This document shows, piece after piece, positions 4,926 to 37,665 of a DNA stretch of 42,555 nucleotides. Each line of letters begins with the position of its first letter. The first letter of the stretch is position 1. Source of the stretch: Rhodospirillaceae bacterium (GTDB taxonomy: Bacteria > Pseudomonadota > Alphaproteobacteria > UBA6615). The position numbers and the translations under genes are program-made. The DNA is taken from assembly GCA_002724635.1 (NCBI GenBank), contig PBPM01000050.1, positions 1 to 42,555 of the forward strand. Reading direction: 5' to 3'. The notes beneath the pieces were generated by a model. The model had not been told where the DNA came from, made no database searches, and was given only the letters and a program-made list of their open reading frames with translations.

Positions 4926-5592
4926 GCTCGGATCACGCTTAATTCCGTTTAACCATATGGCAAGGCTTGGGCGGCCCTCTGTACCACGAGCCTATGTTAC
5001 TATTTCCGCATATCATCATCACTTCCTACTTCGTGCTGGCAACCGCCGCTGTAAAGACCGCGCCGAGCCTCTTGCTGGCTCTATCGGTCGACATGGCGCC
5101 GACGGCCGCCGGACTGGTTTTTCTCGGCTTAGCGTTCGCGCATTTGATCTTCACCCAGTCCGAGCGCAACCGCCGGCTTGTCTAGGAACTGTCCCTAGTG
5201 CGCTGCCCGACGCATGCGATCGCCAAGGATCTTCTAAATACCCAGACGCAGGTGTTGAAGGGGTTGATCAAAGCCTGCTCGCGCCAGCAGACCAAGGGTG
5301 CCCTGTCTGCCGGCGCGGCACTGCTCGAACGGCCCCATCGCGTGGCCGTCGAGGGTCGCGAGGCCGTCAGCGCCCCATCCGCAGACTATCTCAGCGATGT
5401 CGATGACCCTGAGGTGATCGACATCGCGCGCAAGGCCCACATATCGACCGGGTCGATGTGTATCTCCAACCGATCGTCAACATATCCTAGCGGATGAGCC
5501 GCCACTGCAAGTGCTAAACCCGCAATCGCTAATTTGCATTCACGAGCTCGGGCGCTTTCCTCTCGGTGGCAGACATGGCATACGCCTGTCCT
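4926..5592. other. Gene-poor stretch between the M20 gene and the HAD gene
   Basis: No conserved gene is recognisable. It holds one possible small membrane-protein frame (4994-5185, listed separately). After that frame's TAG, the same frame stays open to about 5497 and reads as plausible soluble protein with GC-rich third positions (for example TQTQVLKGLIKACSRQQTKG). I cannot assign either part to a family. No tRNA, repeat or convincing terminator was seen. Confidence 0.4.
4994..5185 (+). CDS. Possible small two-helix membrane protein, unassigned
   Basis: 63-residue frame beginning MLLFPHIIITSYFVLA, with two hydrophobic stretches (roughly residues 3-18 and 38-56) and a charged end (QSERNRRLV). 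The composition fits a real small inner-membrane protein. There is no good Shine-Dalgarno sequence; a start at 4967 in the same frame is also possible and would add nine residues. I do not recognise the family. It lies 68 bases after the M20 gene. It could equally be a chance frame in GC-rich DNA. Confidence 0.3.
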   Translation: MLLFPHIIITSYFVLATAAVKTAPSLLLALSVDMAPTAAGLVFLGLAFAHLIFTQSERNRRLV

Positions 5593-20601: not shown

Positions 20602-21203
20602 TGTGCTGGCGCCACCTCTGCCTGGTCGTTGTATGCCGCCAGTGCGTCGACCACACGCGCAACGGTCGCGTCGAGCGGGCCGTCATCGCTTTCCACGGTA
20701 ATGTCCGCAAGCGCATAGACTGGATAGCGGGTCTTCATCAAGTCCTCGAGACTACGGGCCGGGTCGGCATTGTTGAGTAGCGGCCGGCTGTTGCGCAGCG
20801 CGGTACGGCGCACGAGCGTATTCAGGTCGGCCCGCAGCCAGACCGAGATGCCTGATTTCGCGACTGCGGCTCTTGTATCCTCATCCATGAACGCGCCCCC
20901 GCCGGTGGCCAGAACGATCGGCGCGCCCTCGAGAAGCCGCGCGATCACGCGGCGCTCGCCTTCTCGAAACTCCACCTCGCCATGGCGTGCGAAGAACTCG
21001 GTGATTGTGCATCCCGCGGCCGCCTCAATTTCCATGTCAGCGTCGGCGAAGGGCATTTCGAGACGCGTCGCCAAACGGCGTCCGATCGATGACTTGCCGG
21101 CACCCATCAATCCCACCATCACGATCGACCGATGCGCGGCCGCCGCGACCGCGCGCGAATCGAGCAGATTTTCGTCATCGTTGGCTTGCTCAGAATCACT
21201 CAT
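20598..21203 (-). CDS. aroK: Shikimate kinase
   Basis: Phosphorylates shikimate at the 3-hydroxyl using ATP. About 201 residues from ATG 21203 (21212 also possible). Walker A is LMGAGKSSIGRRLA; DADMEIEAAAG (shikimate and Mg contact), FREGERRVI, LATGGGAF (substrate-binding GGG) and the LID arginine region RNSRPLL follow. The N-terminal 25 residues before IVMVGLMG are longer than in E. coli AroK but usual for alphaproteobacteria. Overlaps aroB by four bases; divergent from the small membrane peptide gene. Confidence 0.96.
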   Translation of the reverse strand: MSDSEQANDDENLLDSRAVAAAAHRSIVMVGLMGAGKSSIGRRLATRLEMPFADADMEIEAAAGCTITEFFARHGEVEFREGERRVIARLLEGAPIVLATGGGAFMDEDTRAAVAKSGISVWLRADLNTLVRRTALRNSRPLLNNADPARSLEDLMKTRYPVYALADITVESDDGPLDATVARVVDALAAYNDQAEVAPAQ

Positions 21204-36293: not shown

Positions 36294-36322
36294 TTGCCAG
36301 CCGGGTTTGGGCTGAGTATGGA
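36294..36322 (+). promoter_or_regulatory. Candidate lysC promoter
   Basis: TTGCCA (36294-36299), a 17-base spacer and TATGGA (36317-36322). The message would start near 36329, giving a leader of about 100 bases before lysC. The -35 matches five of six consensus positions; the -10 matches only its first half. Confidence 0.4.
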
Positions 36323-36429
36323 TACGCCGCCTTCGCATCACAAGCTGGCGCTGCAGGCGTCGAATGCGATCTTGCCGCAGGCTGTGCACGCTCATATGTG
36401 TGCTCGTAGAAGGCATAATGGAAGAGACC

Positions 36430-37665
36430 ATGGCACGTATTGTTGCAAAATTCGGCGGGACCTCCGTTGCTGATCTGGACCGAATCCGTGCCGTCGCGCA
36501 GCGGGTCAAGCGCGAGTACGAGGCGGGACACCAGATGGCCGTCGTGGTGTCGGCGATGGCTGGCGTCACCAACGACCTCGTCGCGCTGACCCGCGAGGCG
36601 CATGCCCTGCACGACGCGCGAGAGTACGACGTCGTGGTTTCGACAGGCGAACAGGTAACGGCCGGGCTGCTGGCGATTTGTTTGCAGGAACAAGGCGTGC
36701 GCGCGCGGTCCTGGCTCGGGTGGCAGGTGCCGATCCGCACCTCGGACGCGCAAGCGCGTGCGCGTATCGAATCCATCGAGATCGAGGAAATGGAGCGCCG
36801 TTTCTCGGACGGTCAGGTCTGCGTGCTGGCCGGATTTCAGGGCGTCGGCCCTGACAACCGGATCACGACGCTCGGGCGGGGCGGGTCGGACACGACCGCG
36901 GTGGCGCTGGCGGCGGCGCTCGGGGCGGACCGGTGCGACATCTATACGGATGTGGACGGGGTCTACACATCGGATCCGCGCATAGTGACCCGTGCGCGCA
37001 AGCTGAGTAAGGTAACTTATGAGGAGATGCTGGAGATGGCGTCCCTCGGGGCGAAGGTTCTGCAGACCCGCTAGGTCGAACTGGCTATGAATCACAGGGT
37101 TCCGGTCCAGGTTCTCTCATCATTCGACGAAGCCGTCGGCAGCGAGCGACCGGGAACGTTGGTCGTGGACGAGGAAGATATCGTGGAACATGAAATCGTA
37201 AGCGGCGTTACCTATAGCCGCGATGAAGCTAAGATTACGCTGGTGCAGGTGTCGGACCGGCCGGGCGTGGCTGCTGCCATCTTCGGGCCGCTGGCCGCGG
37301 CCAACGTTAACGTGGACATGATCGTACAGAACGTTTCTGAAGACGAGACCAGCACTGACATGACCTTCACGGTAACGCGCGGCGATCTCGACCGTGCGAT
37401 CGAGACGCTTAACGCCCGCAAGGAGGAGCTTGGCTTCACCAGCCTAGTTCCCGATGCTGATGTCGTGAAGGTCTCTGTTGTGGGCGTTGGCATGCGCAGC
37501 CATGCGGGTGTCGCCCAGCGCATGTTCTCGGCGCTGGCTGAGCGGGGGATCAACATCCAAGTGATCTCCACGTCGGAGATCAAAATCAGCGTCCTGATCG
37601 CCGAGGAGTTCACCGAGCTCGCCCTGCGCGCCCTGCACACCGCCTATGGGCTCGACGCCGCGTAG
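36430..37665 (+). pseudogene. lysC: Aspartate kinase interrupted by an in-frame TAG (catalytic and ACT halves)
   Basis: First step of lysine, threonine, methionine and diaminopimelate synthesis. The catalytic part (36430-37074, 214 residues) has [56 protein letters not shown] and [14 protein letters not shown], and ends GAKVLQTR. Then comes TAG (37072-37074), and without any frame change VELAMNHRVPVQVLSSFD continues into two ACT domains (to 37665; VSDRPGVAAAIFGPLA and VGMRSHAGVAQRMFSALA). Read through, the protein would be 411 residues plus stop, the normal length, and relatives have Ser at the TAG position (TCG would need one base change). An ATG at 37087 could start a separate 192-residue regulatory subunit. 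It may be a mutation, a sequencing error or a true split; called pseudogene only as the neutral label. Confidence 0.8.
37087..37665 (+). CDS. Aspartate kinase ACT regulatory half as a possible separate subunit
   Basis: 192 residues from ATG 37087, four codons past the TAG. It contains both ACT domains that bind lysine or threonine for feedback control. The only ribosome-site-like sequence is AGG at 37073-37075, eleven bases upstream and partly made by the TAG itself, so initiation would be weak or coupled to termination. In Bacillus subtilis and Corynebacterium an internal start in lysC does make a comparable beta subunit, although there the alpha chain is full length. Alternative: the downstream half of a broken gene. 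Confidence 0.45.
   Translation: MNHRVPVQVLSSFDEAVGSERPGTLVVDEEDIVEHEIVSGVTYSRDEAKITLVQVSDRPGVAAAIFGPLAAANVNVDMIVQNVSEDETSTDMTFTVTRGDLDRAIETLNARKEELGFTSLVPDADVVKVSVVGVGMRSHAGVAQRMFSALAERGINIQVISTSEIKISVLIAEEFTELALRALHTAYGLDAA

Follow-up and report, generated by a model that had tools for sequence, protein, structure and literature searches.

A single in-frame amber codon inside the kinase domain of an alpha/beta-type lysC gene, probably an error of a draft alphaproteobacterial assembly

The lysC gene of the window (the whole stretch of 42,555 nucleotides analysed here) is read in one frame that is interrupted once, by a TAG at codon 215, and that itself terminates in TAG (Table 1). From the comparisons below it appears to be an ordinary aspartokinase gene of the alpha/beta type, a known kind. 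Its amber codon, found in no relative, appears to fall within the kinase fold and is probably a consensus or base error in a draft assembly which we take to be of metagenome type. We infer an error rather than a recent mutation from what was observed, namely the position of the stop, its fold context, its absence from relatives and the lack of decay. The gene encodes the entry step to lysine, threonine, methionine and diaminopimelate.

Table 1. Features of the lysC locus, in positions of the window
Feature	Position	Strand	Basis
Promoter-like TTGCCA, 17 bases, TATGGAT, upstream of lysC	36294..36323	+	sequence; sister contigs
lysC frame (aspartate kinase) with one interruption	36430..37665	+	ORF reading, family match, Pfam
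First 214 codons, up to the stop: AA_kinase domain lacking the final helix and strand	36430..37071	+	Pfam, solved structures, AlphaFold2 model
In-frame TAG, codon 215; a Ser codon in sister genomes	37072..37074	+	sequence, alignments of relatives
ATG four codons past the stop, codon 220 (M220); not the conserved beta start	37087..37089	+	25-sequence alignment
GAGGAA, conserved Shine-Dalgarno-like word ahead of the internal start	37171..37176	+	comparison of lysC genes
Predicted beta subunit from internal GTG 37183: two ACT domains, 160 residues, intact	37183..37665	+	solved beta chains, comparison

The first-pass annotation of this DNA had described an aspartate kinase frame running unshifted save for the one TAG, with an ATG four codons beyond it, and the sequence agrees on both counts. 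Pfam assigns the sequence ahead of the stop to AA_kinase (profile positions 2-215 of 234) and the sequence beyond it to ACT domains; solved aspartokinases align with the upstream part up to the TAG and with the downstream part onward from it. In three sister genomes (G004, G005 and G006) lysC carries the AA_kinase and two ACT domains in one uninterrupted frame, which in the window is broken at codon 215. Against six sister sequences, 19-20 of 20 flanking residues match upstream of the TAG and 18-20 of 20 downstream. To judge from these alignments the TAG is a break within a conserved gene, beyond chance, yet a single point event.

A serine had been proposed at the interrupted position, within what was otherwise the uninterrupted family sequence, and this is what the relatives hold: codon 215 is TCG in five genomes of the same genus, G001, G002, G004, G005 and G006 (the lysC of G001 lies on its contig from codon 172 onward only). 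Across 138 rows, duplicates included, the codon specifies Ser in 126, Ala in eight and Cys in one; the three stops are all copies of the window gene itself. No stop at codon 215 was seen in any relative, either in this comparison or among the genome and family matches, and the conservation of the split that a naturally divided kinase should show among its relatives is not found. An aspartokinase match over the cut-off was obtained in 50 of 60 genomes, and among the matches listed over the cut-off only two have an internal lysC stop: the window's own genome (G000) with its TAG, and G002 with a TAA at codon 153 (locus L037, contig G002:C11). The latter replaces a serine of the GRGGSD motif that is invariant in a 25-sequence alignment. 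The lysC and argG genes of G021 contain frame breaks, as expected of an error-prone assembly.

The structural setting of the stop was examined by modelling the intact G006 protein with AlphaFold2 (25-sequence alignment, mean pLDDT 88.0). The model has a helix at residues 213-222, strands at 226-230 and 243-246 and the next strand at 259-263, with a poorly modelled stretch at 235-239; on our reading of it the border between kinase and ACT domains lies near 246-259. Codon 215 corresponds to the third residue of the helix, and the Pfam AA_kinase match is cut there, 19 positions short of its end. The product ending at the stop would, on this model, be without the last kinase helix and the strand that follows, and is not the complete kinase domain that a naturally split enzyme would have as its first product. 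The earlier placing of the break between the kinase and ACT domains, and with it the notion of a gene split between its domains, finds no support because the cut lies inside the kinase fold and the predicted beta subunit begins at GTG 37183, not at ATG 37087.

This internal GTG was located through the solved structures 3aaw, 2dtj and 5yei, which we take to be alpha2beta2 aspartokinases of the Corynebacterium glutamicum type. The alignment of the beta chains 5yei_D and 2dtj_A starts at their residue 2, which falls on residue 38 of the part after the stop; their residue 1 therefore corresponds to codon 252, that is GTG 37183, which lies 37 codons past the TAG and has a GAGGA ribosome site. The position was then compared across a non-redundant set of 110 lysC genes, drawn from GTDB contigs and from genomes of the class and, to judge by record titles, mostly alphaproteobacterial. 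The GTDB loci had been retrieved with six protein patterns, one of which overlaps the start stretch, though with degeneracy at synonymous sites. The column is present in 109 of the 110 genes and is ATG, GTG or TTG in 103 of these. Azospirillum and Thalassospira (L045, L059) are among the relatives with the conserved start in lysC. Where it encodes valine the codon is always GTG (79 of 79), a codon that makes up 41% of the valine codons in these genes. A Shine-Dalgarno-like word stands 4-15 bases upstream in 107 of the 109, and start and word occur jointly in 94.5% (103/109), the runner-up among internal columns reaching 31.2%; these counts are not independent, since the genes are related. Given the conserved internal start with its Shine-Dalgarno word we class lysC, on comparative grounds, as a gene of the alpha/beta type. 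Its one frame would then yield a full alpha chain, and the internal GTG, with a ribosome site of its own, an ACT-only beta chain. As written, the nonsense codon would abolish a foldable alpha chain but spare the beta chain, whose frame of 160 residues is intact. The methionine at ATG 37087 is invariant in the 25-sequence alignment; the comparison puts the conserved beta start at GTG 37183 rather than there.

According to an excerpt of one paper, the aspartokinase of C. glutamicum is an alpha2beta2 structure (PMC10464499). The window gene resembles that type in having the kinase and two ACT domains in one frame and an internal start at the equivalent codon, and differs from it in an additional stop, unshared by any relative, that precedes the beta start by 37 codons. 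A search of the open-licence full-text literature returned no report of an internal start in alphaproteobacterial lysC, which is no proof that none exists.

The gene is not visibly decaying and, by its substitutions, is under strong purifying selection. Compared with G005, G006, G004 and G002 its dN/dS values are 0.02-0.08 for the kinase part and 0.02-0.04 for the ACT part, the highest being against G002. Against 112 other sequences two residues are private to it, H108Q (in a column 95% conserved) and G306E (89%); the same type of comparison gave none for G005 or G006. In a second comparator set of 93 sequences the window gene has no private residue on columns conserved at 95% or more. Neither the relaxed selection nor the further lesions of a covered pseudogene were found.

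That such a lesion might be covered by a second kinase was one of the suggestions of the first-pass annotation, and it finds no support. The only other aspartokinase over the family cut-off in the G000 assembly (no third was found) is on contig C68 (locus L007), is truncated by the contig end and has Ser at the equivalent codon. Its protein is 67.7% identical to that of the window, and the contig repeats the gene order of the window locus at 67% DNA identity over the two longest matched pieces. The C68 locus is 81.5% identical in protein to L095, from a named Rhodospirillaceae MAG, and has a G+C content of 57.2% compared with 62.7% for the window. C68 is apparently a contaminant contig from another Rhodospirillaceae bacterium, with that organism's syntenic lysC locus, and as a genuine back-up this copy was rejected, being truncated and foreign-looking in both identity and G+C; the genome has no second intact aspartokinase that we could find of its own.

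Genome-wide amber recoding had been thought unlikely on the ground that TAG ends many genes here, and the wider survey bears this out. TAG terminates 14 of the 30 main ORFs of the window (picked from 83) and, over 442,555 bases of G000, 90 of 248 long ORFs; it is an ordinary terminator, neither rare nor avoided. Of 43 tRNA-family matches in G000, ARAGORN recognized 42 as tRNA genes, the exception being the weakest (C19:7580). No CTA anticodon, and hence no cognate suppressor, is among these 42, a list that is incomplete: some expected tRNAs are missing, including tRNA-Ser with the GCT anticodon, and several G000 contigs end in tRNA genes. Recoding was rejected on stop usage and the tRNA set together.

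The window is contig C37 of an assembly whose 137 contigs total 2,946,582 bases, with completeness rated at 100% and contamination at 6.15%. A coding-potential screen of 442,555 bases of G000 gave 36 candidate interruptions; by eye, lysC and place 5183 of the window are the only possible stops within proteins, and the rest look like gene junctions or ends. An in-frame comparison of 95,365 bases with the sister genomes flagged places 5183, 15198, 36815 and 37072. In our reading, place 15198 precedes a start and 36815 lies in a frame antisense to lysC. The TAG at 5183 is in frame within a presumably EAL-like gene (4949-5437) that is decayed and shortened relative to its intact counterpart in G001. 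Besides that gene, lysC is the only clean break in the bases compared.

In-frame stops of this kind do occur in these assemblies, as the sister draft G002 illustrates. Six places were flagged in 103,596 bases of G002, three of which we take to be true breaks: in lysC (supported by five sister sequences), in a presumably ComF-like gene (three) and in an EAL-like gene (one). The TAG in the ComF-like gene, at place 9523 of the joined C11, is on the same contig as the TAA of lysC. The coding-potential screen gave 75 candidates in 430,000 bases of G002 and 42 in 455,001 bases of G006, sorted by eye; of those in G002, three further ones, at C24:198969, 21009 and 20814, look to lie within proteins. 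The G002 homologue of the EAL-like gene (C24, near 20814-21009) also has stops. The in-frame comparison flagged five places in G001, one in G004, seven in G005 and four in G006, which were taken for upstream or antisense frames. Isolated nonsense errors or polymorphisms of draft genomes are likewise single changes, private to one assembly, in conserved frames, as are the breaks of G002; the general case differs from the present one in that few other breaks were found in the window's genome.

As for a hot spot in lysC, matches among 24 genomes carried no stop in rpoB (0 of 17, a set extending past the family into the wider class), asd (0 of 23) or argG (0 of 22), and the 20 lysC matches that passed the cut-off included two with a stop; the lysC frame breaks of G021 were set aside, its argG being likewise broken. 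Two of 20 against none of 62 control matches gives p = 0.057 (Fisher), on which a hot spot was not accepted: the figures hint weakly, if at all, at anything peculiar to lysC. Oxidation-type damage was not accepted either. A G:C to T:A change could account for the G000 stop and for each of the three G002 breaks, the original G002 codons being deduced from the sisters; four cases prove little, and 43.6% of all possible single-base nonsense changes are of this type. The mutY gene is intact in G000, and no match above the cut-off was found in G002 or G004.

Among the explanations that had been left side by side, a sequencing error or a recent lesion is the one now favoured, and a split kinase or readthrough lacks positive support. 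For an error, which we consider the probable source of the TAG, speak the serine of the sister genomes and the privacy of the stop, the lack of decay (dN/dS about 0.02-0.08, two private residues against 112 sequences), the want of a genuine back-up for an enzyme at the entry to its pathway, a position away from both the domain border and the natural subunit start, and the draft quality of the assembly (137 contigs, 6.15% contamination) with similar breaks in G002 and G021. It has to be set against the scarcity of signs that errors are frequent in this assembly as a whole, with one other break, in the decayed EAL-like gene, in 95,365 bases and no other judged by eye to lie within a protein in the 442,555-base screen, and against the lysC stops of 2/20 versus 0/62 in the controls (p 0.057). 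A genuine recent null allele, by which the alpha chain would be lost, the beta chain still made and the cells would live on imported or neighbour-supplied products, is possible though rather unlikely. Such an allele would fit the sister codon (TCG), one base away from TAG, the independent stop of G002 at an invariant residue and the true decay of the nearby EAL-like gene; it sits poorly with a lysC under no relaxed selection, with the failure to find a second aspartokinase of the genome's own, and with the retention of asd and the rest of the conserved locus.

That a product restarted at ATG 37087 joins the 214-residue piece in a working enzyme with altered feedback control is very improbable. 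A restart is conceivable over the 12 bases that separate the ATG from the end of the stop, and a weak AGG word (37073-37075) precedes the ATG by 11 bases; this is no strong ribosome site, however, the cut would on the model fall within the kinase fold, the stop is conserved in no relative and the conserved beta start is elsewhere, at GTG 37183. Even harder to credit is a stop that is real and fixed, giving a three-chain aspartokinase with altered feedback control from the 214-residue kinase piece and two C-terminal pieces (from a coupled restart at ATG 37087 and from the standing start at GTG 37183). Least credible of all is readthrough, in which a suppressor tRNA or a leaky context would insert a residue at the TAG. 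The missing expected tRNAs and the contigs ending in tRNA genes mean that a tRNA could be unseen; against this stand the 42 tRNA genes without a CTA anticodon, the use of TAG to end 90 of 248 long ORFs and, again, a stop that is not conserved.

Were the three-chain reading true, the independent nonsense codon of G002 would mean that the genus tolerates loss of an intact alpha chain, and a stop that was both fixed and functional would show a central biosynthetic enzyme divided in a new manner. With an error the favoured reading, the lesson is rather that a lone in-frame stop in an environmental draft genome calls for comparison with sister genomes and with known internal starts before the gene is declared split. 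A by-product of the work is the comparative evidence that the lysC of many Alphaproteobacteria has a conserved internal start, away from the TAG, for a stand-alone ACT subunit.

Two further observations concern the locus. In G012 and G018, both of genus g7 of the family and rated 99% and 92% complete, no aspartokinase passes the cut-off. Neither genome matches the ubiG-lysC-ptsP region at the DNA level or PTS_I above the cut-off, but both keep asd. The absence may be a shared loss or a shared assembly gap. In addition, sister genomes have an integrative element inserted between lysC and the gene upstream, presumably ubiG, at a promoter-like site (window 36306-36322) that is empty in the window. 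In G011 (L217, G011:C2) 9,038 bases lie at the site between two direct copies of TTCGGGCTGAGTATGGA, with ORFs matching Pfam Arm-DNA-bind_3 (an integrase arm domain), DNA_pol_B_2 and Adhesin_E; no integrase catalytic domain was matched in the Arm-DNA-bind_3 ORF. The G017 contigs (L031/L218) include the site as well as breaks around it, and one contig of G023 (L020) begins there. Contigs of G005 (L180/L041) and G001 (L183), coming from the ubiG side, enter the same foreign sequence at the site, and another G005 contig passes through without the element.
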